Source: a virus
DNA length: 25,371 bases
Virus record (IMG/VR): IMGVR_UViG_3300037861_000077
Span: 1-25,371 of that record
Reading direction: 5' to 3' (one strand)
Each line of letters starts with the position of its first letter. Position 1 is the stretch's first letter. Made by a program: the position numbers and the translations under genes. Positions 3,257-21,512 of the stretch are shown in pieces. The notes under the pieces are model-generated. The model saw only the letters and a list, made by a program, of their open reading frames with translations. It searched no databases and was not told where the DNA came from.

Positions 3257-3576
3257 AGGGTTACAACTTCCAAGCCCCGTGCTTAGTCTGCGGGAAGCTT
3301 ACACGAGGATCTAATAAGTGCGAGGAACATCAGAAGCCAAAGCGTGACTATTCGGTCAGAGACGCTAAGAAGCGTGCCACCGGACAATACTCAGGTGACT
3401 ACAAAAAACGAGCTAGGGTTATCAGAGACTTTGCCGTGCAATGTCACATCTGCAAGGGTGGTTACCGCCCGCACGATCCATGGCAAGCGGATCACCTTAT
3501 TCCAGGGAATCCAGCATCACCTTTGGCGGCAGCTCATAGATCTTGCAATGCAAGCCGTGGCAACAAGCCTTTGTAA
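3253..3576 (+). CDS. HNH endonuclease
   Basis: A 107-residue HNH nuclease. The N-terminal zinc finger has C10, C13, C23 and H26. The catalytic beta-beta-alpha-metal fold has C64-x2-C67, the D80-H81 pair (WQADHLIPG) and H95-x2-C98-N99 (AHRSCNASRG). HNH proteins encoded beside terminases assist cos cleavage and packaging in HK97-like phages, and this compact size fits that role. Here, however, it is separated from the small terminase by about 3.7 kb of unusual DNA. A homing nuclease is the alternative. Coupled by ATGA to the zinc-ribbon gene. Confidence 0.88.
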   Translation: MKGYNFQAPCLVCGKLTRGSNKCEEHQKPKRDYSVRDAKKRATGQYSGDYKKRARVIRDFAVQCHICKGGYRPHDPWQADHLIPGNPASPLAAAHRSCNASRGNKPL

Positions 3577-3581
3577 AAGAC

Positions 3582-3648
3582 AAAAATTCGGTCAGAACCT
3601 TTAACACGAAGCCATTCGGTCAAAAGCAAAAAATTCGGTCAGAACCTT
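3582..3648 (+). repeat. Direct repeat of 20 bp with a partial middle copy
   Basis: AAAAATTCGGTCAGAACCTT occurs exactly at 3582-3601 and 3629-3648. A shorter copy, ATTCGGTCA, lies between them at 3614-3622. The starts of TTCGGTCA are 28 and 19 bases apart, so this is a small irregular iteron-like cluster. The same 8-mer is scattered elsewhere on the + strand of the window. Confidence 0.8.
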
Positions 3649-3701
3649 ATATAGGCGGATCTTGACGTTCTCAGCCAAAAATGACCTCAAAAACGGCCTG
3701 G

Positions 3702-3715
3702 CGAACAAATGTTCG
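3702..3715. promoter_or_regulatory. LexA/SOS box 1
   Basis: CGAACAAATGTTCG matches every position of the Gram-positive/actinobacterial LexA consensus CGAAC-RNRY-GTTCG. It lies upstream of the ten-gene cassette, 41 bp (about four helical turns) centre to centre from box 2, so two LexA dimers would sit on the same DNA face. Confidence 0.75.
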
Positions 3716-3742
3716 AAAAATCGGCAAAAACCGAGGATCGTG

Positions 3743-3756
3743 CGAACAAACGTTCT
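3743..3756. promoter_or_regulatory. LexA/SOS box 2
   Basis: CGAACAAACGTTCT matches the same consensus except for the last base (T for G). It has the same AAA spacer start and the same leading G as box 1, and the shared string GCGAACAAA suggests the pair arose by duplication or is under common selection. Confidence 0.65.
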
Positions 3757-3771
3757 ATCAGGCAGCTCTCA

Positions 3772-3784
3772 GGATACCGTTATC
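3772..3784. promoter_or_regulatory. Dyad element, copy B of a 13-bp shared motif
   Basis: GGATACCGTTATC is the exact reverse complement of 1393-1405 and has the same GATA-N4-TATC symmetry. It lies 24 bases before a TATATG hexamer at 3809-3814. Copy A lies 28 bases before its TAGTAT hexamer, so the placement relative to a possible promoter is similar. Confidence 0.4.
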
Positions 3785-3862
3785 AAACCGTGACCTAGAA
3801 AACCTACCTATATGACACGGCGGGGCGTACTTTATTGGGGCGGGCAACTTTGCCCCGTAAAT

Positions 3863-3872
3863 GAGAGAGAGA
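3863..3872 (+). promoter_or_regulatory. (GA)5 ribosome-binding tract
   Basis: An alternating GAGAGAGAGA tract ends 7 bases before ATG 3880, replacing the AGGAG-type sites used by the structural genes. It is the first of five similar tracts confined to this cassette. Confidence 0.6.
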
Positions 3873-3879
3873 TCAAAAA

Positions 3880-4158
3880 ATGAACGAATTAGAAGCGCAA
3901 GCAGTTCTAGATATGGTGATTGGGCGGGGCTTCTTTGGCTCTTACGTAGAGCTAGTAGGGGGCGGAGATCTGGCAGTCACTGTAAAAGTGCCAATTGGAT
4001 CTGCCATTGTTAGCTATATGGGCGTGACGCTTTACCCCGAAGAGTGGGACGGTGAGGACGTGCCAATGTATAACTTTGATGACACGCTAGAAGCGCTAGA
4101 CATGTTGGATGTTGCTAAGGGCATTGAATGGCTAGATAAATTGGTATTTGTAGCATGA
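3880..4158 (+). CDS. Cassette protein 1 (92 aa), paralogue of cassette protein 2
   Basis: First gene of the cassette. The product is acidic, with 92 residues. An N-terminal helix (LEAQAVLDMVIGRGFF) is followed by beta-rich segments, an IGSAIVSYMGVTLYPEEW stretch, and a C-terminal helix ending GIEWLDKLVFVA. The architecture and the EWLDKL ending match the next gene (LEWLKNL), so the two are tandem paralogues. It has no cysteines or membrane segment. It follows the SOS-box region and has a (GA)n binding tract. I do not recognise the family. Confidence 0.75.
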   Translation: MNELEAQAVLDMVIGRGFFGSYVELVGGGDLAVTVKVPIGSAIVSYMGVTLYPEEWDGEDVPMYNFDDTLEALDMLDVAKGIEWLDKLVFVA

Positions 4159-4451
4159 GCGCCGATAGCAATTTGCAAGTTTGGGAAGAGCTAGAAGCCC
4201 TAGCGCACTCTAAGGGCTTTAGTTTGGCTTATATCAACTCTGACCTAGGGGGCGGGGTGACTGCCATAGAGATACCGCTAGGCGGTTACGCTAACGCCCT
4301 AATGACGCTCAATGGTGTGGGCTATTTTGCGGACGGGTGGCAAAATGACGAGGACGGCACTAACCCCGCCTTGAACTTTGACACCGCCCTAGATATAGCT
4401 CAAGAAGCTCTCAAGGGCTTGGAGTGGCTAAAGAACCTAGGGGGCAACTAA
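4155..4451 (+). CDS. Cassette protein 2 (98 aa), paralogue of cassette protein 1
   Basis: ATGA-coupled to the previous gene. The 98-residue acidic protein has an N-terminal helix (LQVWEELEALAHSKGF), a central IEIPLGGYANALMTLNGVGYF segment aligning with VKVPIGSAIVSYMGVTLY of its neighbour, and an NFDTALDIAQEALKGLEWLKNL end aligning with NFDDTLEALDMLDVAKGIEWLDKL. Duplication followed by divergence is the simple reading. Two copies of one fold side by side may form a heterodimer. Function unknown. Confidence 0.75.
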   Translation: MSADSNLQVWEELEALAHSKGFSLAYINSDLGGGVTAIEIPLGGYANALMTLNGVGYFADGWQNDEDGTNPALNFDTALDIAQEALKGLEWLKNLGGN

Positions 4452-4582
4452 TGCGCCGTATTGTCACTTTGGCAGTTCTGGCGATCACCGTGGGGGCGCT
4501 CATAGCCCTAGCAGACATACCTAGACACATAGCGGGCGCATTTTGGGCGCTTGCATTACTAATTGAGAGAGTAGGGAACTAA
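4451..4582 (+). CDS. Small membrane protein (43 aa)
   Basis: A 43-codon frame sits exactly between two real genes. Its ATG shares the last A of the previous TAA, and its own TAA shares the A of the next ATG. The product begins MRRIVTLAVLAITVGALIAL, a positive start followed by a hydrophobic helix, and has a second weaker hydrophobic stretch (AGAFWALALLIERV). It could be a one- or two-pass inner-membrane peptide. A holin-like or anti-host peptide is possible but unsupported. The tight junctions are the main evidence. Confidence 0.6.
   Translation: MRRIVTLAVLAITVGALIALADIPRHIAGAFWALALLIERVGN
4565..4571 (+). promoter_or_regulatory. GAGAGAG ribosome-binding tract
   Basis: A short GAGAGAG run, followed by TAGGG, lies 10 bases before ATG 4582 within the end of the membrane-peptide gene. 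It is a weaker member of the cassette's (GA)n series. Confidence 0.4.
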
Positions 4583-4818
4583 TGATTATCGGACAATTGA
4601 AAACCGCAAACTATGAATTTACAACACTGCAAAACACCGTTGACGATGCATTGAACGCCTTGAACATAGCGTGGGAGATTCACGCCTACGAGTCTGGCGC
4701 TAGTTATTCGTGGGAGTTTCTTTTAGATAGCGTGACGATGCAACCAATACGCCTAGGCGAAACCGTCAACGATTGCGAACGGTGTGAAAACGCCATTAGC
4801 CATAAGGGGGAAAAATGA
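4582..4818 (+). CDS. Cassette protein 4 (78 aa)
   Basis: This 78-residue protein starts on the shared A of the upstream stop and overlaps the next start as ATGA. It shows alternating strands and helices (TVDDALNALNIAWEIHAY) and a C-terminal C-x2-C pair (CERCENA) with a nearby histidine, which could bind metal with a partner chain. It is soluble and acidic. I do not recognise a family. Confidence 0.7.
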   Translation: MIIGQLKTANYEFTTLQNTVDDALNALNIAWEIHAYESGASYSWEFLLDSVTMQPIRLGETVNDCERCENAISHKGEK

Positions 4819-5006
4819 AGCCCCGCATTATTGGCTATGTGCTGCACTTGCAGGACGGGACACGTAAAAGCGTGGAGGGCTTTAGTGTGTGGGAGTCAAT
4901 GGCACGTTATGACAATTGGGAAAAGGCATGCGGGCGATACCCGCAAAACGTTAGCCACGCCGTGGCTATCTTGAACACCGATAAAGAGAGAGAGTTACAA
5001 CAATGA
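4815..5006 (+). CDS. Cassette protein 5 (63 aa)
   Basis: This 63-residue protein is preceded by AAGGGGG (4804-4810), a conventional purine-rich site, and is coupled by ATGA at both ends. Its sequence starts MKPRIIGYVLHLQDGTRKSV, suggesting a small beta-hairpin domain, then an aromatic-rich segment (WESMARYDNWEKACGRY). No membrane segment, and only one cysteine. Unknown function. The coupling makes it a solid gene call. Confidence 0.7.
   Translation: MKPRIIGYVLHLQDGTRKSVEGFSVWESMARYDNWEKACGRYPQNVSHAVAILNTDKERELQQ
4985..4994 (+). promoter_or_regulatory. (AG)5 ribosome-binding tract
   Basis: AGAGAGAGAG lies 8 bases before ATG 5003, inside the end of the preceding gene. It belongs to the same unusual series as the tracts at 3863, 5371 and 5650. 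Confidence 0.55.
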
Positions 5007-5368
5007 GAGTAGCGAATTACACCCGAAGCGATCACGCTAAAGAGCTAGGGCGCAAATACCTTGACCGCCTAAATGACGGCGGGATACTCGTAGTACAAGT
5101 GACGAGGACGAACCCGCAAAACACTACCTACCGATACAAGGTGTTTTTGGCTTACAACGAAAACGGCGCAACGCACTTAGAGCCAATTAGCTATTGGTTA
5201 GCTGCCGGATTAGGCGAAAAGCTAACCGACAAATACGAACTAAAGGGGAGTGGCGGAGGCTTTAGCCGTTATTTTCACGCCGTGCAGAACTTTATCTACG
5301 CCCTAGAAAAGCTAGGGATCGAAACACCTCCCCGCTATGTCTACGATGTCAAATACAGCGAACTATAA
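5003..5368 (+). CDS. Cassette protein 6 (121 aa)
   Basis: This 121-residue, mildly basic protein has an N-terminal helix (SDHAKELGRKYLDRLNDGG) followed by strands ILVVQVTRT and YRYKVFLAYN. A C-terminal half with GSGGGFSRYFHAVQNFIYAL looks like a loop before a helix. No cysteines and no membrane segment. The start at ATG 5003 is supported by the (AG)5 tract and by ATGA coupling. No family recognised. The compact alpha/beta arrangement would suit a small inhibitor or adaptor, but that is speculation. Confidence 0.72.
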   Translation: MRVANYTRSDHAKELGRKYLDRLNDGGILVVQVTRTNPQNTTYRYKVFLAYNENGATHLEPISYWLAAGLGEKLTDKYELKGSGGGFSRYFHAVQNFIYALEKLGIETPPRYVYDVKYSEL

Positions 5369-5370
5369 AA

Positions 5371-5384
5371 GAGAGAGAGAGAGA
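5371..5384 (+). promoter_or_regulatory. (GA)7 ribosome-binding tract
   Basis: Seven GA units end three bases before ATG 5388. This tract decides the start of the following gene, whose frame is open farther upstream from 5337. It is the longest of the cassette's GA tracts and could vary in length by slippage. Confidence 0.55.
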
Positions 5385-5387
5385 ATC

Positions 5388-5648
5388 ATGAATCTAATAA
5401 TGGAACACTTATGCGAGTGTGGAAACAACGCCGATAACTACTTAGCTACAGAAACACCCCTAAAGGGCTATCCCCCAAAATGCGGGGAATGCGCTCACGC
5501 CGAAGAGTGCAAGCCCAAAAAGAAAATGCGTTTTTACTCTGCACACTTTGGGGGTCACGGTGTAGCAAGTTGCAAGAACTGCACCTTTACCGCTGTTTAC
5601 TTTGAATGCGGTTGCGATCTATTGCACAACTGCAACGAATACAAATAA
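5388..5648 (+). CDS. Cysteine-rich, probable zinc-binding protein (86 aa)
   Basis: The frame is open from ATG 5337, but that start lies inside the previous gene. ATG 5388, directly after the (GA)7 tract, is preferred. The 86-residue product has ten cysteines (9, 11, 32, 35, 41, 62, 65, 74, 76, 82), including C32-x2-C35, C62-x2-C65 and C74-x-C76, plus several histidines. This is enough for two or three zinc sites. No known zinc-finger class fits clearly. A nucleic-acid-binding or protein-binding adaptor is a reasonable guess. Confidence 0.72.
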   Translation: MNLIMEHLCECGNNADNYLATETPLKGYPPKCGECAHAEECKPKKKMRFYSAHFGGHGVASCKNCTFTAVYFECGCDLLHNCNEYK

Positions 5649-5649
5649 A

Positions 5650-5659
5650 GAGAGAGAGA
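5650..5659 (+). promoter_or_regulatory. (GA)5 ribosome-binding tract
   Basis: GAGAGAGAGA followed by ATCAAAA and ATG 5667. The arrangement GA tract, then ATCAAAA-like spacer, is nearly the same as in front of 3880 (TCAAAAA). Confidence 0.6.
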
Positions 5660-5666
5660 ATCAAAA

Positions 5667-6386
5667 ATGAGCACGATAACCAACACGGCAACAACGGACA
5701 AACTAACCGCAATGTTTACCGAAAACACGGGGCGATCTTTTCTAGATAGTGGGGGAGAGAGCGGTAGAGCGTGGCAACGTAATCAAGGCATGACTACCGC
5801 CGATTACCTAAGCGCCCCAACTGCTACTTGGGAGAGAGCGGGCGGGGCAACTATCAACACCTACCAATACCTATTAGCCCGCCTGGAATTCTCTACCGCT
5901 GCCCTAGTTCTCAACCGCCTGATACGTGTATGGGAATTGGGAGACTACGAGAACCGGAATTTGTTTGACCTAGAAGATCAAGAGGATGCGCTCAGAGCAA
6001 TTGGGGCAACCCTAGGCGGGAGTGTCTGGAATACCTACAACTATGAGAGTGACCTAAGCACCGTTTTACAAGGATGGGATTTTACGCTCAACGGGCAGAC
6101 TTACACACTGCTACAAGTTCACGGGGGCGCTGACGTTAGGGGCGGGTACACACTGCCCGTAATCTTTGAGACACATTGCGACGGGTGGATTTATCAATGC
6201 GCTGATTACTCTCTATGGTGTGGGGGGTGTGAGTTCTCTTGGAGTATCTACGGGTCAGACATTACCGCCTATGGCAACTCAAAAGACTTTGAGCTTCCTA
6301 ATGGTCACGCCTATGAGATCTTCGGCGATGGTTGCCCTAAGTGCCACCTTGACCTAATAGCGGACGCCGAAAGCGAGTGCTACTAA
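5667..6386 (+). CDS. Conserved phage protein with LDSGG motif and zinc site (239 aa)
   Basis: The largest cassette protein, 239 residues. Near the N-terminus, FTENTGRSFLDSGGESGRAW (residues 17-36) corresponds to the LDSGG-x-GR-x-W motif I recall from conserved hypothetical proteins of many phages and plasmids. The C-terminal third has C185-x2-C188 (WCGGC) and C223-x2-C226 (GCPKCH), a likely zinc ribbon. The middle is alpha/beta with a WDFTLNG segment. Its ribosome-binding site is a (GA)5 tract. Its stop shares a base with the next start (TAATG). The biochemical role of the family is not known to me. Confidence 0.75.
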   Translation: MSTITNTATTDKLTAMFTENTGRSFLDSGGESGRAWQRNQGMTTADYLSAPTATWERAGGATINTYQYLLARLEFSTAALVLNRLIRVWELGDYENRNLFDLEDQEDALRAIGATLGGSVWNTYNYESDLSTVLQGWDFTLNGQTYTLLQVHGGADVRGGYTLPVIFETHCDGWIYQCADYSLWCGGCEFSWSIYGSDITAYGNSKDFELPNGHAYEIFGDGCPKCHLDLIADAESECY

Positions 6387-6553
6387 TGGGCGCTTATAAG
6401 AGCATAATCACCGACATACAGTGCGCCTTAGAGGACGGTAACCTAGAAGCTGCACTAGACACGCTTAGCGCCGTGAACGCTGAGAGAGAAGACAAAGCAC
6501 AACTGCTACTTACTGCCCTGGAATTGGCATTAGGACGGTACGGCGATGAGTAG
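6386..6553 (+). CDS. Small helical protein (55 aa)
   Basis: A 55-residue frame starts on the last base of the preceding TAA and overlaps the next gene by 8 bases. The product is all-helical and acidic (IQCALEDGNLEAALDTLSAV, then QLLLTALELALGRYG), like a two-helix hairpin. It has no own Shine-Dalgarno and is presumably translated by reinitiation. Function unknown. Confidence 0.6.
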   Translation: MGAYKSIITDIQCALEDGNLEAALDTLSAVNAEREDKAQLLLTALELALGRYGDE

Positions 6554-6737
6554 CCCCCGCCCCCGCCCTAGCTACGGGAAGCCTAAGCCCACGCCCCTAG
6601 GGGTCAAGCTGATAAAGATAATGTTATTTAGTATCGGCTTGCTCATAGCTCCCGCCCTAGCCGTAGTGCTCGTAGGCTTCGGCTTGCTCTTTGGGATCTT
6701 ATTCTCATGGATCAATCGAGCGCTTACTAAGCAATAG
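6546..6737 (+). CDS. Small membrane protein (63 aa), end of cassette
   Basis: This 63-residue protein has a proline- and lysine-rich N-terminus (SSPRPRPSYGKPKPTPLG) and then one long hydrophobic region, residues about 25-54 (IMLFSIGLLIAPALAVVLVG and onward), ending in a basic NRALTKQ tail. It is probably a single- or double-pass membrane protein with the N-terminus inside. It overlaps the previous gene by 8 bases and is followed within 25 bases by a terminator hairpin, so it closes the operon. Function unknown. Confidence 0.65.
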   Translation: MSSPRPRPSYGKPKPTPLGVKLIKIMLFSIGLLIAPALAVVLVGFGLLFGILFSWINRALTKQ

Positions 6738-6758
6738 CCCCGCCCCCTAGTCACCCCT

Positions 6759-6787
6759 AGCCCGCTACCCGCAACAGGTAGCGGGCT
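6759..6787 (+). terminator. Terminator hairpin after the cassette
   Basis: A perfect 11-bp stem, AGCCCGCTACC / GGTAGCGGGCT, with a 7-base loop, followed by only TTGG. The strong stem with almost no U tract is the type often seen in actinobacteria. It lies 21 bases after the last cassette gene. Confidence 0.7.
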
Positions 6788-6808
6788 TTGGCATGTCTGC
6801 AACAACAC

Positions 6809-6830
6809 ACACCGACACCGACACCGACAC
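6809..6830 (+). repeat. ACACCG tandem repeat
   Basis: Three full ACACCG units plus ACAC. Short, perfect and non-coding. Confidence 0.8.
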
Positions 6831-6878
6831 GCTAACAACGCTCACGCCCCCCGCCAGCGCCTATCTAAGCCCCGCTGC

Positions 6879-7048
6879 CCCGTAGGTGGCACGATTACAC
6901 CGCCAGACACCTTGACCGCCTAGGGCAACCATAGACGGGCTAAGGCGATAACATGCCCCGCCCCCGCCCGTAGAGCACTCTCTAACGCCACGGCACACCA
7001 AGGGGGCATACACAGACCCTAAGCGCCCCCGTGCCCGTAGGTGGCACG
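6879..7048 (+). repeat. 15-bp direct repeat pair
   Basis: CCCGTAGGTGGCACG occurs at 6879-6893 and again at 7034-7048, 155 bases apart, within the non-coding GC-rich region. Paired direct repeats upstream of the small terminase could be terminase-binding sites. Confidence 0.7.
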
Positions 7049-7094
7049 CTATGACCTAGCCCGGCAGCTGGCAACCACTCCCCCACCGCCCCTA

Positions 7095-7145
7095 GACACT
7101 AGATGTAGTGGTCTAACGCCCCCTTGACCACTACATGTAGGGGTC
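7095..7145. repeat. Imperfect inverted repeat with central palindrome
   Basis: The perfect core is ATGTAGTGGTC (7103-7113) against GACCACTACAT (7126-7136), with a 12-base loop. Allowing mismatches, the arms extend over 7095-7113 and 7126-7145. The right arm contains the palindrome CTACATGTAG (7131-7140), and the left arm contains the small hairpin CACTA-GATG-TAGTG. Confidence 0.75.
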
Positions 7146-7252
7146 ACCCCCCCCGTAGCCCCCCTGGGGTGGGGCACGCCCTGCACTGGGCAGCGACCCG
7201 ACACCCCGCTCGCCCCGTTCGCTTATTTTTACGCATTTGAAACTAAAAGTGC

Positions 7253-7264
7253 TACGCTCTACAC
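7253..7264 (+). promoter_or_regulatory. Possible leaderless promoter for small terminase
   Basis: An extended -10 element, TG-C-TACGCT (7250-7258), is followed by six bases and then ATG 7265, so transcription would begin at the start codon itself. No Shine-Dalgarno precedes the gene. TANNNT boxes 6-7 bases before the start codon mark leaderless genes in actinobacteria. Confidence 0.45.
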
Positions 7265-7693
7265 ATGCCGAACCCAGCAGTACCTAACGAGCTAAAGCGC
7301 CTGACGGGTAACCCAGGCAAGAGACCCCTGACAAAGATAGAAAACGTCATGCCTATTCAGGGGGGATACACCGAACCGCATCAGCCCCTAGAGTGGGCAG
7401 GCATGCAACTGTGGGATAGAACCTTCAAGGCAGCACGAACTTGGATAGGTCACACCGATGTCGAGGCATTGATGATTGTCTGCAAGCAACTTGATCGGCA
7501 GGTAAAGATTGAGTCGCTGTGGGCAGAGAACCCCGAAGACTTCCACATCATGCGCCAGTTGATTGAACTAGACAAAGCGATAATGTCTGGGCTTGGTCAG
7601 CTTGGCTTCACGGTTGACTCAAGAACTCGGCTGAACCTAGCGGAGATAAAAGCCGAGTCTGCTTTCCAGAAGTTGATGTCTGAGAGAAGCTAG
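7265..7693 (+). CDS. terS: Terminase small subunit, P27 family
   Basis: A 142-residue DNA-recognition subunit of the packaging motor. The N-terminal segment NELKRLTGNPGKRPL is the signature of P27-type small terminases, followed by P-x2-P-LEWAGMQLWDRTF and helical segments that build the oligomer. Normal length for the family. It lacks a Shine-Dalgarno and appears leaderless. Its TAG overlaps the GTG start of the large subunit (TAGTG), as expected for co-translated terminase genes. The GC-rich repeats just upstream are candidate binding sites. Confidence 0.92.
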   Translation: MPNPAVPNELKRLTGNPGKRPLTKIENVMPIQGGYTEPHQPLEWAGMQLWDRTFKAARTWIGHTDVEALMIVCKQLDRQVKIESLWAENPEDFHIMRQLIELDKAIMSGLGQLGFTVDSRTRLNLAEIKAESAFQKLMSERS

Positions 7694-9207
7694 TGTGGCC
7701 TCCGGCTTGGCTAACGCCAGTAGCACCTGAATCAATTGACCGTGGTGACGGTGACTTTATTATTCGGTTTGCAGATGCCTTTGGCTCTATAACTAAAGAC
7801 TCAATTGCAGGCAAGGCTGGCACAAAGCTGGTGCTCCGTGAATGGCAAAAAGAACTAATACGCCACATCTTTGCAAGAGACGAGGACGGCGGAATGTCGC
7901 ACCGTGTCTCACTCGCAGGGATTGCCAGAAAGAACGGGAAAAGCGCACTCGGTTCAATCATTGCTGCCTTCGGGCTAATGGATGTCAAGACTCAGGGCGC
8001 AGAGATTTACTCGGTAGCCGCTGATCGTAACCAGGCTCGCATTGTCTTTGAAGACACTAAGCGCATGATTGCTAACTCTGAACTAAACGAACACGTCAAG
8101 ATTTACAGAGACTCAATCTTTGTTCCGGCAACCAACAATGTCTACAGAGTGCTATCGGCGGACGCACCTAGACATGAAGGCTTGTCCCCTACTCTGGTGC
8201 TTTTTGACGAACTACACGCTCAGCCCAACAGACAGCTTTTTGATGTTATGTCGCTTGCTCAAGGAGCTAGAGGCAAGTCAGCAACGATGGTCGCTATCAC
8301 CACGGCGGGTGTAAAGACTGAGAGTCAGACTGGTAAGGATTCAATTGCTTACTCTCTTTACCAATACGGACAAAAAGTAGCACGGGGCGAAACCATTGAC
8401 CCCACGTTCTTTATGGCATGGTGGGAAGCCCCGCCCGAAGCAGATCACAGACTTGAAAGCTCATGGAGGTTAGCTAACCCTGGCTTCGATGACATTTGCG
8501 CTAAGACCGACTTCCAGTCAGCGGTACTGCGCACACCAGAGTCCGAGTTCCGCACAAAGCGTTGTAACCAATGGGTGTCTAGTCAGTCATCTTGGCTACC
8601 CGCTGGTTCGTGGGATGCTCTTGGGGGAGACTTTGAAATCTCTGTAGATGAAGACTACGTGCTTGGCTTTGACGGATCTTATGCTTCGGACTCAACTGCA
8701 CTTGTGGTTTGCACGATGCCGAAAGATGGAGAGCTACCTAAAATCAAGCTAGTCAGAACTTGGGAAAAAGACTTTGGCGTAGACGATGACTCATGGCGTG
8801 TACCTATGGACGAGGTAAGGGCAGAGATTGTCAGTTACCTACAGGCGTTTCCTAAGTGCCGTGAGGTGGCTTGTGACCCTTATCGCTGGGCGCAGATGAT
8901 GCAAGATCTAGACGAGCTTGGCTTTCCTATTGTTGAGTACAAAACAAACTTGCTAAACCTTATGATTCCTGCAACTCAAAAAGTGTTCGATGCTGTGATT
9001 GAGAAGAAATTAATACATGACGGCAACCCGGCACTCTCCCGACACATAGACAATTGTGTAATCAAGTCGGATCACCGAGGACAGCGTGTGACTAAAGAAC
9101 ATGCGAACTCAAAAAAGAAGATTGACAACGCTATAGCATTCATCATTGCTTACGATAGGGCAACTATCAGTAGAATGGATGAAGTAGTGCCACAAGTATT
9201 TGTATAG
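7693..9207 (+). CDS. terL: Terminase large subunit, HK97-like
   Basis: A 504-residue ATPase-nuclease that pumps and cuts phage DNA at the portal. The ATPase domain has GIARKNGKS (76-84) as the Walker A variant, LVLFDEL (168-174) as Walker B and coupling motif AITTAG (201-206). The RNase H-like nuclease has acidic residues in GFDGSYASDST (D327), ACDPYRW (D395) and KIDNAIA (D478). Full length for the Terminase_1 family. It starts at GTG 7693, sharing bases with the small-subunit stop. A membrane-protein gene and the portal follow directly. Confidence 0.96.
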   Translation: MWPPAWLTPVAPESIDRGDGDFIIRFADAFGSITKDSIAGKAGTKLVLREWQKELIRHIFARDEDGGMSHRVSLAGIARKNGKSALGSIIAAFGLMDVKTQGAEIYSVAADRNQARIVFEDTKRMIANSELNEHVKIYRDSIFVPATNNVYRVLSADAPRHEGLSPTLVLFDELHAQPNRQLFDVMSLAQGARGKSATMVAITTAGVKTESQTGKDSIAYSLYQYGQKVARGETIDPTFFMAWWEAPPEADHRLESSWRLANPGFDDICAKTDFQSAVLRTPESEFRTKRCNQWVSSQSSWLPAGSWDALGGDFEISVDEDYVLGFDGSYASDSTALVVCTMPKDGELPKIKLVRTWEKDFGVDDDSWRVPMDEVRAEIVSYLQAFPKCREVACDPYRWAQMMQDLDELGFPIVEYKTNLLNLMIPATQKVFDAVIEKKLIHDGNPALSRHIDNCVIKSDHRGQRVTKEHANSKKKIDNAIAFIIAYDRATISRMDEVVPQVFV

Positions 9208-9213
9208 GCGGTT

Positions 9214-9348
9214 ATGTTAGCTACAATTTTGCAAGTTTTAGGCGCAGTACTGGTTTCGGTTGGTATGGCCCTAGTTTGGCTGCCAGCAGGAGTGATACTG
9301 GCAGGGTTGTCTGCCCTAGCCTTTGGGATAGCTATGGAGCGTAAGTAA
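9214..9348 (+). CDS. Small two-helix membrane protein (44 aa)
   Basis: A 44-residue frame fits between terminase and portal; its TAA shares the A of the portal ATG. The product is almost entirely hydrophobic (LQVLGAVLVSVGMALVWLP, then AGVILAGLSALAFGIAM), with a PxG turn between two membrane helices and a basic MERK end. I recall similar tiny membrane proteins at this spot in other actinophages. The role is unknown. Confidence 0.65.
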   Translation: MLATILQVLGAVLVSVGMALVWLPAGVILAGLSALAFGIAMERK

Positions 9349-10700
9349 TGCTAAATAATCTTTTTGAGAAACGTCAGGTGTCATTCCAGACCCTATGGGG
9401 CGCAGGCGGAGACTTAGAGCTGAACAATCAGTCAGCCACATTCATTGACTCAACGACTGCCCTACAGATTAACGCCGTCTTCTCAGCAGTCTCACTAATA
9501 AGCGACACTATCGCCACACTGCCTACAGATGTCTTTATCCGTAGATCTGGCGCTCGCTATCCTTTCCGTCCACAGCCACAGTGGATTACCAAGCCAGATG
9601 TTGACACAACCAAGGAAGCCTTCTACGGCTCTGTCATTGTTTCTCTTTTGCTTGACGGCAATGCCTTTATTAGGGTCTACTCAAACCAACGTGGAGAAGT
9701 AGTCAACCTAAACGTTCTAAACCCCGTGGATTGCGAAATCCAGCGCAACGGGCTAGGCAACGTAATGTTCAAGGTCAAGGGCGAAAAGAAAATGCTTAGC
9801 TCTGACGAAATGATTTTTATACCTGATCTAGTAAGACCGGGTAACCTCCGTGGTGTTTCTCGCACCGATGCACTAAAGGAAAACCTTGGGCTTGCGAAGG
9901 CGCTAGAGAACTACGCAGCTCGCTTTTTCGGTCAGGGTACACAAACCTCGGGCGTGATAGAAGCGCCTGGAAGCCTAACTGGTGATCAAGCACGTGCAAT
10001 GCAAGAGGCTTTTGATTCACGTCACAGAGGTTGGAGCAAGGCACATAAGACCGCAATCATTTCAGGCGGGGCAACTTACAAAGCTACTAACGTGCCGAAT
10101 GATCAAGCTCAGTTTCTAGACTCTCGCCGTATGGCAGTTGAAGACATTGCCCGTGCATTCAACATCCCTCCACACCTGTTGGGACTGCCTGGCACTAACT
10201 CTTATGCTTCGGTTGAGCAAAATAACCTAGCTTGGGTAACTCACTGCCTTCGTCCAATAGTCCAGAAGATTGAGGGTGCTATGTCACCTTTGATGAATAG
10301 GTACTCTGGTGGCGATACAGCATTCTTGAGATTCAACCTAGACGGCTTACTACGTGCCGATGTCACTTCCCGTATGTCAGCTTTCTCAACGGGACTGCAA
10401 GCAGGATTTTTGACTATCAACGATGTTCGGCGATTAGAAGATCTGCCACCAATCAACGACCCTTCCGCTGACACTGTAAGAGTGCCTTTAGCTAATGTCA
10501 ACGTGGAGGCAGCGGACTTGTCAGCTCAGACTGAGCGTGTAGACATGGCTCAACGATTGATACAGGTTGGCTTTGATCCAGCAGAAGTCTTGGCCGCCTT
10601 GAAGCTGCCACCAATAGCTCACACCGGAGTACCATCGGTACAGCTACAGTCATCAGCACAAATCAATCCAGAAAACCCTGACGAAGTTTACGAAGTCTAA
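9348..10700 (+). CDS. Portal protein, HK97 family
   Basis: A 450-residue protein forming the dodecameric ring at the capsid vertex through which DNA enters and leaves. Family hallmarks are the N-terminal AVFSAVSLISDTIATLP helix, FRVxxNxxG-type loops (VYSNQRGEVVNLNVL), the DEMIFIPDLVRPG segment, and the C-terminal SRRMAVEDIARAFNIPPHLL followed by NSYASVEQNNLAWV, all typical of HK97-type portals. Length is normal for the family. The start shares a base with the stop of the small membrane-protein gene. Confidence 0.95.
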   Translation: MLNNLFEKRQVSFQTLWGAGGDLELNNQSATFIDSTTALQINAVFSAVSLISDTIATLPTDVFIRRSGARYPFRPQPQWITKPDVDTTKEAFYGSVIVSLLLDGNAFIRVYSNQRGEVVNLNVLNPVDCEIQRNGLGNVMFKVKGEKKMLSSDEMIFIPDLVRPGNLRGVSRTDALKENLGLAKALENYAARFFGQGTQTSGVIEAPGSLTGDQARAMQEAFDSRHRGWSKAHKTAIISGGATYKATNVPNDQAQFLDSRRMAVEDIARAFNIPPHLLGLPGTNSYASVEQNNLAWVTHCLRPIVQKIEGAMSPLMNRYSGGDTAFLRFNLDGLLRADVTSRMSAFSTGLQAGFLTINDVRRLEDLPPINDPSADTVRVPLANVNVEAADLSAQTERVDMAQRLIQVGFDPAEVLAALKLPPIAHTGVPSVQLQSSAQINPENPDEVYEV

Positions 10701-10719
10701 AGGCTATAAGGAGAACTGC

Positions 10720-10845: not shown

Positions 10846-10850
10846 CTAAA

Positions 10851-11621: not shown

Positions 11622-11623
11622 TC

Positions 11624-13321: not shown

Positions 13322-13328
13322 AGAGCCT

Positions 13329-13922
13329 ATGAGTATAACTAACGGGTATTGCTCTCTTGCAGACATCAAAAGCTCCCTTCGCATAGAAGACTCAGTTGAC
13401 GATGCAATGCTAGAGCTGGCAGTAGAGACGGCATCTCGGCAGATTGACGATCACTGCGAGAGGGTATTTTATTCGGTCACAAATACTCGCTACTTTATGC
13501 CTAGAGACTCTTACGTTTGTGAGATAGATGACATCTCTGTAATTACTTCGGTCAAGACTTCCTCGGCTGCCGACAATGTGTTTGACACTCATTGGGAAAC
13601 TACTGACTATCAGCTTGAGCCTCTCAACGGCATTGCGGGCGGAGTGCTAAGCCCCGCTACTCACCTAATAGCTATAGAGGACTACTTGTTCCCCGTAAAT
13701 GGCAGAGAAGCAACCGTACAAGTTATTGGCTCATTTGGTTGGACACAAATACCGACTGCAATCAAGTATGCAACCATTTTGCTAGGCGCTAGGCTGTTCA
13801 AGCGCATGGATAGCCCACTTGGTGTCGCTGGCATCGGTGACATCGGCGTTATCCGTGTAAGCCGGATTGACCCAGACATTGACTCTTTGATTGCACCATT
13901 CAAGAAACCAAGGTTTGCATAG
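13329..13922 (+). CDS. Head-tail connector (adaptor) protein
   Basis: The frame is open from GTG 13251, but that lies inside the capsid terminator, so ATG 13329 is chosen (197 residues). The N-terminus, YCSLADIKSSLRIEDSVDDA, followed by MLELAVETASRQIDDHCERVF, is the signature of HK97 gp6-like adaptor proteins that form the ring below the portal. C-terminal strands and helices (WTQIPTAIKYATILLGARLF) fit the same family. Its TAG overlaps the next GTG start. Confidence 0.85.
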   Translation: MSITNGYCSLADIKSSLRIEDSVDDAMLELAVETASRQIDDHCERVFYSVTNTRYFMPRDSYVCEIDDISVITSVKTSSAADNVFDTHWETTDYQLEPLNGIAGGVLSPATHLIAIEDYLFPVNGREATVQVIGSFGWTQIPTAIKYATILLGARLFKRMDSPLGVAGIGDIGVIRVSRIDPDIDSLIAPFKKPRFA

Positions 13923-14326: not shown

Positions 14327-14335
14327 GGAGATAAC

Positions 14336-14755: not shown

Positions 14756-14764
14756 GGATAGACA

Positions 14765-15165: not shown

Positions 15166-15170
15166 TAGAG

Positions 15171-15194
15171 AACCGCTCCTTGGGGCGGTTTTTC
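15171..15194 (+). terminator. Rho-independent terminator after chaperone
   Basis: The stem AACCGCTC / GGGCGGTT (8 bp including one G-T pair) has a CTTG loop and is followed by TTTC. It lies 5 bases after the frameshifted stop. Confidence 0.75.
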
Positions 15195-15224
15195 TATTTG
15201 CGGTAAACTTATAGCAATAGATCG

Positions 15225-15926: not shown

Positions 15927-18900
15927 TGGCAGGTAAAGTCAGTGTACCAATTTCAGTTGCGGTACAGGGTATTGCAAAGACTCAAGCTCAGCTAGGTCAA
16001 CTTGGCAAGGGTCTAGGCAACATTGCTAAGACCGCCGGACTTGCCGCTATCGGATTCGCCGCATTTACTATTGGTGTCAAGAGCGCAGATTTTGCTGCCC
16101 AAGCAATCGCTGGTGCTCGTGATCTGGAACGTAACCTTGCAGGTCTAAAAAGTGTGTTTGAAGAGACCACTCCTCAGATGGAGGCGTTCTCACGCAATGC
16201 GGTAAGCATGGGACTATCGCTAACAGAAGCATCTAAGGCATCTACATTTATTGGTTCGGTTATAAAGCAGTCTGGTTTTAGCATTGCCGAAACCGCTGAT
16301 TTGACTGAGCGTCTAGTTGGCTTGGGAACTGACTTAGCTATTACATACGGTTACGATGTCCAGGAAGCCCTTATGGGTATGACTGCTTTGTTCCGTGGTG
16401 AGTATGACCCTATCGAGAAGTTCGGTGTTGCAATGAAGCAATCCGAAGTTAACTCGGAGCTGGCAGCTAAAGGTATGGGAAACCTTGAGGGAGCACAAAG
16501 GAGATTTGCAGAACAGCAAGTCCGTGTAGAGCTTCTATTCCAAAGAGCATCTGACGCTGCCGGGCAGTTTGGTAGGCAATCTGGGACTCTTGCAGTAGAG
16601 CAGCTAAAACTACAAGCCGCATTCTCAAACGTAAAAGACACTGTAGCTACTTCACTTCTGCCAGTTATTACCAATATGGTTATGACCCTAAAAGACCTTA
16701 TGGAATCAGTCGGGCCAGAACTGAAAATAGTCTTTGACGAACTTGCTCCGGTTCTAGGTACAGTATCAGAGGCACTACTTCCTGCTTTTGCAGAAGGTTT
16801 GTACACACTGATGGACATCTTTAAAGAAATCATCAACTTGATTGGTGACATGTTTGATGCAACCACGCCAGTCGGCGAGGCATTTACTTTCTTAGGTGAG
16901 CAGTTTGACGCTGTATTTTCAGCAATCTTTTCAACTAGCTTTACTACCGAAAACGTGTTTGAGCTAATTGGTGACTTTGTAGAAGTACTTGCGCTAAACC
17001 TTGGCAACATCCTTATGGTAATTGAGGAAGTAATCATTACCGCAAGAGCACTTTTAATTATGATTCAGGCTGTCTTTAATAGAGATCCAGCAATTCTTGA
17101 AAAGGGACTTGGCAGAATCAAGGATGAGATAAGAGAATCAATCACCCTTGCCAAAACTCTTGACTTATTGGAAAAAGCTAGAGATGGCCGAGCAAGAATA
17201 ACTGCGAATGCAACAGAAGCAATGTTTGACCGTGCCGATCAAGCAATGCTTAGGAGGGCACAAAACTCAGCAAAAGTAATTGTCGAAGAGGCAGAAACCA
17301 TTATCACAGATGGTCTTACTGGTGGCAAGGCAAAAAAGGTTGCCACTGATCACATCAAAGAGTTGTTTGATGCAATCCAGAGTGAAATTGCAAAGCAGAC
17401 TGTATCTATCAAGCTACGAGCAATGGGTGCTTCTGAGGGATTAGTAAGTCAAATCATTGGCTCTGACGGCATGATGAAAATAATGATTGCGCTGAAAAAG
17501 GGCACAATCAGCTTAGAGGATTTACAAAAGCAATTTAACAGGACAGCAACGGGGGCTAAGGAGCTTGCAGATGCAGCCAAGGAAGTTGATGATGCAATCC
17601 AAGCTTACGCAGATGCCATTGCAGAGATTGAAAATAAGCTTGCTGATGATTTAGCATCGATCGCAGAAAAGGCAGCCCAAGCTAAAAAAAGCTTCCAAGA
17701 TCTCACGTCAAGTTTTGACATCCTGCCTACAATCGCTCGGCAAATCGGTCAGTTTGAATCTGCCGTCACAAGCTACCTAGAGTCCATAGAATCCTCCCTA
17801 AAGTCAGCATTTGACAACGGTGACCTCTTGGACTCTGGTTACCAAGAGCTAGTCGCATACGCTCGCAAGGAGCTACAGATTCTTGCAGGTATACAGCAAC
17901 AGCGTGATGAACTGGCAAACCGATTTGACTTATCAGAAGCTCTTATCGCTAACTACCGGACTGCGCTTACTTCGGCACTAAGCCTTACAGCCATGATTGA
18001 TTCGGCTTCAAAAAAGACACAAGAGGTCACAGTCACCGAGATGAAGCGTGGCATTGTCAGGCTTGGCGGCGATTTACGAGAGTTTTCGGTCACACTTGCT
18101 CGTACATACACCGAAACAATAGAGGAAACTTCTACAGCCTCTGAAAAGCTTGTAGGCAACTTTAGGGACATGACGGCAAGGGTAAAGGCTTTTGCTGCCA
18201 ACCTGCGGTCACTTAAGGCTCTAGGACTAGATCCGCAACTGTTTGACCAGCTCGTGCAAGCAGGTGTCACCGCTGGTGGCGAAACTGCGCAGGCGCTTAT
18301 TGACGGCGGCGCTGCCACAATCAACGAAATCAACGGGCTATTCCAGGAGATTGACGCACTTGGCGCAGGCTTGGGCGAGGAAGTTGCAGCAACTCTCTAC
18401 GGATCAGGAGTTGACTTAGCTGACGGGCTACTTGCAGGAATTCGGTCAAAGCAAAGTGAAATAGAAAACCTTGCACGAAGCATGGCAGAAGCATTCAATG
18501 CCAACTTCTCGGCTGCGGTAAAAATACAAATAGATCAAGCTGCTGGTGTAGCGTCTGGTGCTGCTACTGCCGCTGCGGATGCTGCCAAGGCAGCTGTACC
18601 CGTGCCAGCTGCACTTTTACCTGTTGTAAACGTGGCAGATCAAGAAAAGCTGCGTCTGCTTATAGAGGGCGCTACTAGGTTCATTGGCAACGTTGCAGAC
18701 ACGGCACAAAAGGCAGGAGGGCAAGTAAAGCTTGACATCTTTAACTCCCTAGCTGCTGACATTGCGGCTGGTAAGTCTGTCAACCTCTCTGGCATCAAAT
18801 CAGGACTAAGTAGCGCAAATCTTGCATCAGCTGCTGCAAATGCAACTGGCACTACTCAAAACATAACTATCAACGTCAAGACTGACGCAACACAATCTAC

Positions 18901-18973: not shown

Positions 18974-18975
18974 TA

Positions 18976-20202
18976 ATGACTTTCCCAGTGCAAAAGATTG
19001 AGATTGGCTTCAACCTAACAGGATCAAACGCACCGCTGTTTACACTAGACAACGCCGTAAAGGGAGTTCTCGATAACACAGAGTTCCCGCTATCAGGAAC
19101 AATCTTTTTTGATGTAACGGCAAAGGTAAAGAGTGTCGCAATACAGCGAGGTAAGAACAGGCAATTCGGTCAGTTTGACGCTGGACTAGCGAACGTAGTT
19201 TTCCTAAATAATGACAGAACCTTTGACCCTGAGTACGAGCAAAGCCCGTTCTTCGGTCAAATCATTCCAAAACGCTCAATCCGAATAAGCTCGGCTGGTA
19301 GGCGAACCTTTACCGGAATCATAGATGACTGGAATCTTTCCTACGACATCTCTGGCTTGTCAGAAGCTTCTGCGGCTTGCTCAGATGCGTTCTCAGTTTT
19401 TAACAATCAGGTTCTCTCAGCGCAGACATTTACAGCGCAAACTAGCGGTGAGCGTGTAAGCGCAGTTCTAAATGACCCCAACGTGAACTGGAATGCCGCC
19501 GACCGGAGTATTGAAACTGGACAGAGCTTATTTAGCACTGATTCGGTTGAGGAAAACACAAATGCACTTACATACTTAAGGCAAATCGAAGCTTCCGAGC
19601 CTGGTCAGTTGTTTGTTGGTAAGAATGGCAACTTGACGTTTAAGGATAGAAACCCCTCAGCGGGTTCTAGCTTCCTAACTTTCTCTGATAATGAGAACGG
19701 CATCGGCTACGAAACCATGCAAGTAGTTTATGGATCAGAGCTACTGCACAACGAAATCATTCTGACGAACTTGTCGGGCACAACTGTGACGGTTACTGAC
19801 GAAGAGTCAATAGCTGAGTATGGAAGATTTGTCTTTAACTATGACAAGTCCTTAGTGGACTCTGCCGAAACGCTGGCAAACATAGCACTGCTCTTGGCAA
19901 ACGCCTACTCTCAGCCCGAGTACAGGTTTGAGTCCCTAAGTATTACTCTAGATAAGTTTGACCTTGCCACACAAACGCAAATTCTAGATTTAGAAATCGG
20001 CATAGTAGTAGAGGTGCAGTTCACCCCAAATAAAATCCCACCTGCCATAATCAAGCTTGTAGAGATTACTCGAATAGATCACGCAATCTCACCTGCTAGT
20101 CACATAGTCACCTTTGGCTTCTCAACGATTGATAAAGGCCCTTGGACACTCTCTGACGCTGCCTTTGGTAGACTGTCAGCTAACAACGTATTGAGCTTTT
20201 AG
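18976..20202 (+). CDS. Minor tail / baseplate hub protein
   Basis: A 408-residue protein directly after the tape measure, where distal tail and hub proteins lie. The segment VKSVAIQRGKNRQFGQFDAG, then ANVVFLNNDRTFDPEYEQSP and FFGQIIPKRSIRI, is a pattern I recall from actinophage minor tail proteins. The later GQLFVGKNGNLTFKDRN segment is hub-like. It probably forms the tip ring that holds the fibres. The start is ATG 18976, two bases after the previous stop, with only a weak Shine-Dalgarno. Confidence 0.82.
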   Translation: MTFPVQKIEIGFNLTGSNAPLFTLDNAVKGVLDNTEFPLSGTIFFDVTAKVKSVAIQRGKNRQFGQFDAGLANVVFLNNDRTFDPEYEQSPFFGQIIPKRSIRISSAGRRTFTGIIDDWNLSYDISGLSEASAACSDAFSVFNNQVLSAQTFTAQTSGERVSAVLNDPNVNWNAADRSIETGQSLFSTDSVEENTNALTYLRQIEASEPGQLFVGKNGNLTFKDRNPSAGSSFLTFSDNENGIGYETMQVVYGSELLHNEIILTNLSGTTVTVTDEESIAEYGRFVFNYDKSLVDSAETLANIALLLANAYSQPEYRFESLSITLDKFDLATQTQILDLEIGIVVEVQFTPNKIPPAIIKLVEITRIDHAISPASHIVTFGFSTIDKGPWTLSDAAFGRLSANNVLSF

Positions 20203-20209
20203 GAGAGTC

Positions 20210-20884
20210 ATGTCAGGAAGAAAAGTCTTTGAGCCTGGCGATGTACTAAGCGCTGACGATGTTAACTCATTCTTAATGGATCAATCCGTAATGGTATTTG
20301 CTTCGGCAGCAGAGCGTGCAGCTGAAATTACAGAGCCTATTGAAGGCATGCTTACTTACAGGACTGACTCAAAAGTCCTTGAATCTTATAACGGAACTGC
20401 ATGGGTTGGCGTAGTGCCCGCAAGTGGGAATGTTCCCGCAGCATCCGTAGTCGGTGCTCTTGAGAATGCAACTATTGCCGGAAGCGCTATCACTGGAACA
20501 ATATCTGGAAGTGCTATCTCTGGGATAATTACAACAGCCACCACAGCCACAACGAGGGTAGCTCAAAGCACTCTAACCCTTACTGCCGTTGCAAACACTA
20601 ACGTTGTTAGCAGCCAGTCGGGGGTTCTTGTGATTATAAGCACTCAAACTACTAACTGCACAATAAGCTTTACAGTTAATACTGACTTTCCTATTGGTGG
20701 CAGATTAGACATAATTAAAACTGCTGGCTCGGGCACTCTGACTATACAAAGCACTACAGGTGCAACCATCTTTGGCGGTGGGCAAGCCTCTACCCAGTAT
20801 CTATTAGCCAACGACGATGCTTGCTCTGTCTTGTGTATAGCGACAGATACCTATCGAATAATCGGGAATGTGACGGCGGTTTAA
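20210..20884 (+). CDS. Tail tip/fibre protein A (224 aa)
   Basis: A 224-residue structural protein with AGGAG before ATG 20210. Residues 1-70 (FEPGDVLSADDVNSFLMDQS, MVFASAAERAAEI, SYNGTAWVGV) align by eye with the N-terminus of the next gene, giving a shared attachment domain. The rest is serine/threonine/alanine-rich beta structure ending in GNVTAV, suggesting a trimeric fibre or tip decoration. Some phages use such proteins as anchors for receptor-binding fibres. Confidence 0.75.
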   Translation: MSGRKVFEPGDVLSADDVNSFLMDQSVMVFASAAERAAEITEPIEGMLTYRTDSKVLESYNGTAWVGVVPASGNVPAASVVGALENATIAGSAITGTISGSAISGIITTATTATTRVAQSTLTLTAVANTNVVSSQSGVLVIISTQTTNCTISFTVNTDFPIGGRLDIIKTAGSGTLTIQSTTGATIFGGGQASTQYLLANDDACSVLCIATDTYRIIGNVTAV

Positions 20885-20885
20885 T

Positions 20886-21512
20886 ATGTCTTGGAGACAA
20901 TGGGCAATTGGTGAAGTAGTACTAGCCTCTGACTTTCAGTCGCTGGTGCAAAATCAGGTAATTCAGGTTTACGCTGATGCCGCCGCTAGGGACACTGCAC
21001 TAGGTTCTGCTGTTGAGGCGGGTATGTTTGCCCACCTACTAGACACAAGCGACACTCAGTACTACAACGACACGGCTTGGGTCAGCGTAAGCAACCCTGG
21101 TGACATAACAGAGGTAACCGCAGGGACTGCGCTGACAGGCGGTGGCACTAGCGGAGCTGTGACCCTAGGTGTAGATCTAGCCGCAATCACAATACCTACA
21201 GCGCAGATAAGCGATTTGACAGCGACTGCTACAGAGATAAACCACACTGACGGCGTCACATCAAATATACAAACTCAGCTTGACGCCAAGCAGGACGAAC
21301 TAACAGGACTTACTGCAACTGTCGCAGAAATAAACTTTGTTGACGGCGTGACCTCTGCAATTCAGTCACAAATTGACGGCAAAGTTGGGCGCACGAATGG
21401 TTCGGTCACAACGGCCTCTACAAGCCAGAATGTAGTCCGTAACATTACACTCTCTACTGCCGATCCTACAGGCGGTGCAGATGGTGATGTCTGGCTGAAG
21501 TACACAGCATAA
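20886..21512 (+). CDS. Tail tip/fibre protein B (208 aa), paralogue of A
   Basis: This 208-residue protein starts one base after the previous stop. The N-terminal 65 residues (WAIGEVVLASDFQSLVQNQV, QVYADAAARDTAL, YYNDTAWVSV) parallel protein A. It then has TALTGGGTSGAVTLGVD and two copies of the phage-fibre repeat EINHTDGVTSNIQTQLDAK / EINFVDGVTSAIQSQIDGK. Such repeats form the shaft of tail fibres. The C-terminus GGADGDVWLKYTA is a common fibre ending. Confidence 0.8.
   Translation: MSWRQWAIGEVVLASDFQSLVQNQVIQVYADAAARDTALGSAVEAGMFAHLLDTSDTQYYNDTAWVSVSNPGDITEVTAGTALTGGGTSGAVTLGVDLAAITIPTAQISDLTATATEINHTDGVTSNIQTQLDAKQDELTGLTATVAEINFVDGVTSAIQSQIDGKVGRTNGSVTTASTSQNVVRNITLSTADPTGGADGDVWLKYTA

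Follow-up and report, generated by a model that had tools for sequence, protein, structure and literature searches.

An oriented one-strand motif, an adjacent repeat array and a candidate HNH nicking enzyme in related phages

The short word (A)TTCGGT(Y) is conserved on one strand, inside and outside genes, in diverged relatives of a phage that we analysed over positions 1–25,371 of its record IMGVR_UViG_3300037861_000077 (the window); the lineage probably infects aquatic Microbacteriaceae. The motif occurs about once per kb on that strand and an array of copies adjoins the gene of a predicted nicking enzyme, which suggests that an enzyme encoded by the phage itself may mark or nick one strand of these genomes.

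Motif excess in the window

A sequence-only reading had listed 12 copies of TTCGGTCA in the window. Each lies exactly where listed, on the + strand and in the reading frame assigned to it; the reverse complement TGACCGAA is absent from the window, and the skew claimed for the shorter TTCGGT is real (28 on + versus 4 on −). For TTCGGTY, the window counts are 25 (+) and 0 (−). What is conserved is (A)TTCGGT(T/C), here written (A)TTCGGT(Y), and TTCGGTCA is the commonest form of this core in the window phage and in its 99% relative. Copies other than those of the array described below are:

1013–1019, +: TTCGGTT
3007–3013, +: TTCGGTT, intergenic
3059–3065, +: TTCGGTT, intergenic
3206–3217, +: two overlapping copies TTCGGTTCGGTT, starting at 3206 and 3211, within the zinc-ribbon ORF
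3351–3358, +: TTCGGTCA, within the HNH gene
7763–7769, +: TTCGGTT
9255–9261, +: TTCGGTT
9927–9934, +: TTCGGTCA
10208–10214, +: TTCGGTT
11317–11323, +: TTCGGTT
11333–11339, +: TTCGGTT
13472–13479, +: TTCGGTCA
13547–13554, +: TTCGGTCA
16255–16261, +: TTCGGTT
18085–18092, +: TTCGGTCA
18441–18448, +: TTCGGTCA
19165–19172, +: TTCGGTCA
19252–19259, +: TTCGGTCA
19542–19548, +: TTCGGTT
21401–21408, +: TTCGGTCA
24774–24780, +: TTCGGTT

Since the annotated genes are all on the + strand, strand bias is by itself expected, and the informative part is the excess over a codon null. Dinucleotide shuffles of the window gave a mean of 0.55 copies of TTCGGTCA and never reached 12. Codon preference had been discounted as the cause, and the excess indeed persists under shuffles that preserve amino acids and codon usage: coding copies of TTCGGTCA number 9 against 0.55 expected, with a maximum of 4 among 2,000 shuffles, and coding TTCGGT numbers 19 against 4.35. 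Ranked against this null, TTCGGTCA comes first among all 8-mers and TTCGGT first among all 6-mers.

The motif in related phages

In many related phages, no word is more over-represented than (A)TTCGGT(Y); the excess is confined to one strand, and the complement is at or below chance. Against the codon null, 14 phages together hold 172 copies of TTCGGTT (27 expected) and 70 of TTCGGTC (20 expected), while the reverse complements number 10 versus 17 and 8 versus 13, respectively; in 80 relatives, the motif is found 565 times versus 204 expected and its complement 141 times versus 141. Counts on the + and − strands of single genomes are 39/0 (G012), 34/0 (G008), 24/0 (G007) and 48/2 (G430). An unbiased scan of viral contigs for clustered copies, with figures from the matches listed, showed that among those matches the placeable contigs with a genome-wide skew belong to the same lineage.

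Enrichment is seen in every reading frame (2.9-, 13.4- and 8.4-fold), which together with the codon-preserving shuffles excludes codon or peptide repeats as the source. UUCG tetraloop hairpins were also ruled out, since C is rare before TTCG and A is preferred. Placement is uniform within genes and spacing is exponential with a mean of 857 bp; 202 of 239 copies lie in coding DNA, the density being 1.29 per kb in non-coding and 1.04 per kb in coding DNA, and no relation of the motif to gene starts was found. Compact minus-strand ORFs, mostly whiB-like, carry four copies on the phage + strand and none on the − strand. Small as these numbers are, the motif keeps the phage's + polarity in such genes, which points to a DNA-level signal and not to gene sense. 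The codon null, the relatives, the enrichment in all frames and the minus-strand ORFs thus support the oriented DNA-level signal beyond codon choice that had been proposed.

A phased array beside an HNH gene

The sequence-only reading had mentioned neither this array nor the zinc-ribbon and HNH genes next to it, nor the relatives. It had counted three non-coding copies; these, at 3587, 3615 and 3634, are indeed non-coding and form one local array. The features of this region are:

1849–2994, +: exonuclease/phosphoesterase-like gene (phrog_284), a conserved neighbour of the HNH gene
3080–3256, +: 58-aa zinc-ribbon protein (Pfam Zn_ribbon_8, slightly under the cut-off); the end of the ORF, with its stop, overlaps the start of HNH
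3253–3576, +: small HNH endonuclease of 107 aa (PHROG HNH families), the candidate motif reader
3587–3641, +: non-coding array of three direct ATTCGGTC copies, directly 3′ of the HNH gene
3702–3715: LexA-type (SOS) box CGAACAAATGTTCG, 3′ of the array
3743–3756: second LexA-type box CGAACAAACGTTCT

An array 3′ of the HNH gene is present in most HNH loci. Relatives carry one to eight direct copies at the same place, mostly 11 bp apart, which is the modal spacing, and in 42 loci selected for holding an array the 260 bp after HNH contain 223 copies on + versus 3 on −. Similar LexA-type boxes are found in relatives, and Geobacillus phage PK5.1 has its exonuclease/phosphoesterase-like and HNH genes in the same order.

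The window HNH begins with a zinc-ribbon-like C-x2-C...C-x2-H, and in the alignment of HNH proteins the C, C, C and H of the zinc site and the DH/H/N of the HNH motif do not vary. An AF2 model reached a pLDDT of 85.5; its best PDB match, the HNH domain of Cas9, is weak, and no significant PDB match was found.

A terminal segment free of enrichment

Beyond the array, the window holds:

3642–7215: segment of small genes from the array to the cos-like end, with no + strand motif
7216–7239: match to the left contig end shared by relatives, the probable cos or physical left end
7265–7693, +: terminase small subunit (phrog_83)
7693–9207, +: terminase large subunit (Pfam TerL domains)

Among the relatives, 27 of 60 contigs begin 470–500 bp 5′ of terL, and G005 starts at terS and ends about 170 bp after HNH, apparently complete between. 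Enrichment is confined to the arm running from cos/terS to the array. In relatives, the + orientation is found 169 times versus 12.4 expected under the codon null and the − orientation, in this main arm, 20 times versus 34; the bias therefore stems from a gain of + copies, not merely from a loss of − copies. In the terminal segment between array and cos/terS, the + motif is at chance level. An apparent flip of polarity there (3 + versus 46 −) was rejected as mostly local composition: the dinucleotide null expects 2.5 + and 29 −, the codon null 1.6 + and 24 − (42 − versus 24 in that comparison), and the residual − excess is only 1.6–1.7-fold. All that we claim for this segment is the absence of + enrichment.

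HNH type and motif vary together

HNH type, array and dispersed motif vary together. Array and dispersed motif occur jointly at 50 HNH loci and are both lacking at 6, the discordant loci numbering 6 and 2; both are missing from phages with a divergent HNH. With types named by the residue preceding the conserved ADH (Q, V or T), TTCGGTY accompanies 47 of 56 Q-type loci, and 9 of 11 T-type loci are without the motif. Exceptions are the Q-type loci L401, L403 and L405, which lack it, and the T-type loci L342 and L343, which have it. V-clade phages carry TTTGGTY instead (+/−: G423 34/1, L271 38/2, G017 32/5), a link that counts as one event because it concerns a single clade. A 301-aa YqaJ-like exonuclease likewise tracks the motif, in few comparable genomes.

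A candidate strand-specific nickase

The reading that we prefer, to which we give somewhat less than an even chance, is that the phage encodes an HNH endonuclease that is strand-specific and has (A)TTCGGT(Y) as its asymmetric recognition site. The HNH of phage Gamma nicks AC^CGR, the complement of which is YCGGT (PMC8845596, PMC5304195), and this site is contained in the motif. The two proteins share a PC..C..LTR..CEEH plus HNH layout, in an alignment that is remote (17.8 bits in a one-sequence search space); plain BLAST matched only phiPsal1. Like the HNH of Gamma and HNHE of GVE2, the candidate is a small zinc-ribbon and HNH protein near cos and terminase, (PMC8845596, PMC5304195); we see this location in G005 and in the window, where 3.6 kb separate the gene and the cos-like end. 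It differs in that the similarity is only remote and in that three phages with a Gamma-like HNH (PK5.1, Wanderer and phi105) do not carry YCGGT above its codon-null expectation.

HNH would bind the motif, perhaps with the adjacent zinc-ribbon protein, and nick one strand, by analogy with Gamma the bottom strand (RACCGAR). Late or virion DNA would then have nicks at intervals of some 0.9 kb, resembling the nicked DNA of T5, phiKMV and tf. In an array with 11-bp spacing, nicking could leave a small gap of single-stranded DNA at the border of the terminal early-gene segment, which may be kept site-free for intact entry or expression. Known one-strand nick motifs include TACTRTGMC in tf and WACTRTGAC in Rembedalsseter (PMC3517423, PMC11780129). 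As with the nicks of T5, phiKMV/phikF77, tf and Rembedalsseter, we find a short one-strand motif above chance, in and between genes, common to diverged relatives (PMC3517423, PMC11780129). Unlike the known nick motifs, which are sparser, ours has about one copy per kb and a 7-bp core, is accompanied by a phased array next to the HNH gene and leaves a terminal segment poor in copies; hosts and lineage also differ, and here the motif is known from sequence and the nicks are predicted.

A fuller version of the nickase reading, which we hold to be unlikely as a whole, would have HNH and its sites split the genome into a site-poor terminal segment, with small early genes possibly under SOS control, and a site-rich main arm, the array being cut into a gap that pauses or orders entry, packaging or recombination, the dispersed nicks marking one strand, and enzyme and site co-evolving (TTCGGTY, TTTGGTY, AYTCGGTY).

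Alternative explanations

A Chi-like role, in which a host nuclease of RecBCD, AddAB or AdnAB type that attacks linear phage DNA from its ends is tempered by the motif, its orientation matching the exposed end, seems to us rather unlikely, though the motif resembles Chi in being a short, oriented, gene-independent word of high one-strand copy number placed randomly within genes. The − orientation is moreover depleted in the main arm (20 versus 34) and slightly enriched terminally (42 versus 24), as if the ends were treated differently. The Chi words known so far are enriched in the genomes of their hosts. By contrast, in seven genomes sampled from the presumed host family, Microbacteriaceae, one of them the MAG in which relatives of the window phage occur, the motif is close to its codon-null level: six have 137 copies of TTCGGTY versus about 111 expected, and G020 has 28 of TTCGGTT versus 21.6 and 28 of TTCGGTC versus 27.1. 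Nor would a Chi-like role predict a phased array tied to a phage HNH gene or variation with HNH type. The suggestion that a Chi or KOPS word was copied from the host is therefore unsupported, and the motif is absent from the relatives G003 and phiPsal1. KOPS and architecture-imparting sequences share with our motif an oriented word and DNA-level polarity, but here the word lies in phages and no clear host replichore polarity was seen in the genomes checked. A strong host polarity, drawn from a partial site list, was withdrawn: the full list for G162 mixes both strands, G020 contigs are only mildly polarised, and host DNA shows no enrichment over codon nulls. A methylation target had also been proposed, but one read on both strands fits poorly because enrichment is confined to one strand; a packaging- or entry-related role is conceivable, since cos/terS and the array near HNH mark the limits of the enriched stretch.

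We likewise judge it improbable that the array serves as an origin of iteron type, or guides another phage protein (a replication initiator, TerS or a translocase) as a landmark, with dispersed copies marking direction like KOPS. Direct repeats spaced about one helical turn, an enriched arm between cos and array and a polarity that follows the genome and not the gene would suit it. However, with about 3.6 kb between it and the cos-like end in the window, the array is not a TerS cosB site, a GC-skew switch at the array was looked for and not found, and no host replichore polarity survived scrutiny.

There is a small chance that the copies act as stoperators of the kind found in cluster A mycobacteriophages, asymmetric sites at which a bound phage repressor blocks transcription elongation; the segment without sites would then be expressed while the rest is silenced. 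As in L5-type phages, many asymmetric sites share one orientation across the genome, aligned with most transcription, and the array adjoins LexA-type boxes with the motif-free segment beyond. Stoperators are 13-mers in short intergenic spaces (PMC9283540), whereas our 7-bp sites are mostly intragenic (202 of 239) and uniform, independent of gene direction, with a phased array; copies in minus-strand ORFs oppose transcription (4 versus 0), and a by-eye check of G005 from terS to HNH revealed no recognisable integrase.

An RNA-level signal, UUCGGUY acting on mRNA stability or translation, is slighter still: nearly all copies are gene-sense because nearly all genes are on +, but in minus-strand genes they are antisense (4 versus 0), non-coding density is equal or higher and gene starts are unrelated to motif position. 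Escape from type III restriction through a uniform orientation of the sites, T7's way of evading EcoP15I, we practically discount, as the single orientation and the somewhat low − count in the main arm fit, but a many-fold gain of + copies (169 versus 12.4) is unnecessary for escape and the array is unexplained.

Meaning for phage DNA nicking

To our knowledge, phage HNH nickases of known site have lacked a known genome-wide target. Although the localized nicks of phage DNA were described 50 years ago, no function for them is agreed on (PMC11780129). This lineage links an oriented, selected motif to one candidate enzyme, a conserved array, a sharp genome border and natural site variants. The question of what the nicks are for, and what makes them, can thereby be put to the test directly, with a single small protein and a 7-bp site.

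A strand-biased motif at the DNA level

The window, 25,371 bases long and recorded in IMG/VR, has all its genes on the + strand, among them those for terminase, portal, prohead protease and HK97-type capsid. Of the named phages, Pontimonas phage phiPsal1 is closest (TerL 55%), and the phiC31 group comes next. Relatives have been binned into a MAG of the Microbacteriaceae, which makes this the probable family of the host. The sequence-only reading had listed 12 copies of TTCGGTCA on + and none on −, each at a position that proved exact; TTCGGT occurs 28 times on + and 4 times on −. Since every gene is on +, such a bias must be judged against a codon null, here a shuffle of synonymous codons. 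Coding copies of TTCGGTCA numbered 9 against 0.55 in the shuffles, and those of TTCGGT 19 against 4.35, placing the two words first among the window's 8-mers and 6-mers, respectively, and bearing out the claim that codon preference is not the cause. Most other 8-mers of high raw count (GGCGGCGG and others) come from GGC/GGT repeats in two glycine-rich proteins (21514-24903).

The motif is an oriented DNA-level signal, as had been proposed. It is enriched in all reading frames (2.9, 13.4 and 8.4 times), occupies 28-45% of the positions at which the encoded amino acids permit it, and is uniformly positioned within genes (KS p 0.52) and randomly spaced (mean 857 bp), with a density of 1.29/kb between genes and 1.04/kb within them. 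Minus-strand ORFs with little or no plus-ORF overlap, mostly whiB-like, carry it 4 times on the phage + strand and never on −, which, in these small numbers, speaks against a signal read in mRNA or tied to the direction of transcription.

The skew recurs in many related phages. Among 80 TerL relatives, TTCGGT is the hexamer most over-represented against codon shuffles (565 versus 204), and its reverse complement lies exactly at expectation (141 versus 141). In 14 longer phages, TTCGGTT (172 versus 27 expected) and TTCGGTC (70 versus 20) are enriched, with A preferred before the core, T or C after it and other flanks little conserved; +/− counts in whole records reach 39/0, 34/0 and 24/0. A few relatives lack the motif, including phiPsal1 and G003, whose TerL is 82-87% identical to those of motif-bearing phages. 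Separately, coding DNA of relatives G001-G013 is strongly depleted in TTCGATC, which contains GATC (3 versus 25 and 5 versus 23 expected on the two strands), and in TTCGGCC (3 versus 17), likely through avoidance of restriction sites. Another oriented word, TGGAACT(G), is in excess on the + strand of G423 (L412), G003 and G004; in G423, TGGAACTG occurs 15 times versus 1.5 expected and its complement 0 times.

An array and a border

Two scans, one for clustered motif copies and one with the HNH family, revealed a conserved non-coding array which, among the matches listed, begins at most some tens of bases past the stop codon of HNH. It comprises up to 8 direct copies, mostly 11 bp apart; across the 260 bp that follow HNH, 42 loci selected for having an array total 223 + copies and 3 − copies.

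Features of the window
3587-3641, +, non-coding array of three copies
3702-3715 and 3743-3756, two LexA-type boxes, 3′ of the array
7216, equivalent of the relatives' probable cos end

The LexA-type boxes have the array on one side and a string of small genes on the other; together with similar repeated boxes in relatives, they suggest that the terminal early segment is under SOS-linked control. One phage, L271, has a second, different array of TTCGGTT/C (11484-11624) away from the HNH neighbourhood, its HNH array being TTTGGTY.

Between array and terS the + motif is absent from the window (3642-7762), and likewise from relatives. Over 34 non-redundant loci, this segment (96 kb) has 3 copies on + and 46 on −, where dinucleotide shuffles already give 2.5 and 29. 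Coding + copies number 169 versus 12.4 expected in the terS-to-array arm and 3 versus 1.6 beyond the array. What can safely be said is that the motif is enriched in that arm alone. The − orientation in the terminal segment exceeds the nulls 1.6-1.7 times (46 versus 29 for composition, 42 versus 24 for codons; 34 loci), a possible weak reversal of polarity. Since 27 of 60 contigs of relatives start 470-500 bp 5′ of terL, two of them (L018 and L019) with an apparent Illumina adapter remnant as their first 13 bases, followed by shared terminal sequence, a physical cos end probably lies immediately upstream of terS. G005 seems to be complete between terS and HNH, and its contig stops ~170 bp past the HNH gene.

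A candidate enzyme for the motif

Next to the array is a gene for a small HNH protein whose N-terminus bears a zinc-ribbon-like motif; in the window, a 58-aa zinc-ribbon protein precedes HNH. The family profile matches the HNH nickase of phage Gamma weakly, and the architecture agrees. Its nicking site is AC^CGR (PMC8845596), whose complement, YCGGT, is the core of the motif, and Geobacillus phage PK5.1 has the same order, phosphoesterase-HNH-end-terS-terL. In phiPsal1 (MG835450), the HNH match at 30545-30838, annotated only as a hypothetical protein, has neither array nor motif skew.

Array and dispersed motif occur together in 50 loci, are both absent from 6 and are discordant in 8. The residue before the conserved ADH of HNH varies with the motif: V goes with TTTGGTY (34/1 in G423, 38/2 in L271, 32/5 in G017), most loci with Q have TTCGGTY, most with T have no motif, and one HNH with H (G433) is accompanied by ACTCGGT and ATTCGGT in equal measure. 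On the tree of HNH proteins, 8 changes are required for the three motif classes versus 18.8 after label shuffling, and V/TTTGGTY forms a single clade. HNH type and motif class covary, which is not proof, and part of the covariation is shared descent. A YqaJ-like exonuclease likewise tracks the motif in the few genomes that allow comparison.

We favour one-strand nicking, in which the phage HNH enzyme would recognise the motif and nick one strand. The motif, its strand, the array, the border and the covariation are observed; binding, nicking, choice of strand and function are what we infer. Possibly a different protein reads the motif, as a landmark for replication or packaging. Chi-like action, one of the options in the sequence-only reading, perhaps copied from the host, is less likely: the seven Microbacteriaceae genomes sampled, from the probable host family, offer no support for it. 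Stoperators fail on both the position of the copies and their orientation relative to gene direction.

T5, phiKMV and tf have localized nicks with one-strand motifs, and a net one-strand motif count is reported for 61 related Pseudomonas phages (PMC3517423, PMC11780129). Three phages with a Gamma-like HNH show no comparable site enrichment, so genome-wide site selection would be this lineage's own feature. One-strand motifs in nicked phage genomes are already known, and the genomes of this lineage are probably nicked too; what is new is the anatomy, namely a phased array, a border and a candidate enzyme whose variants go with variants of the site.
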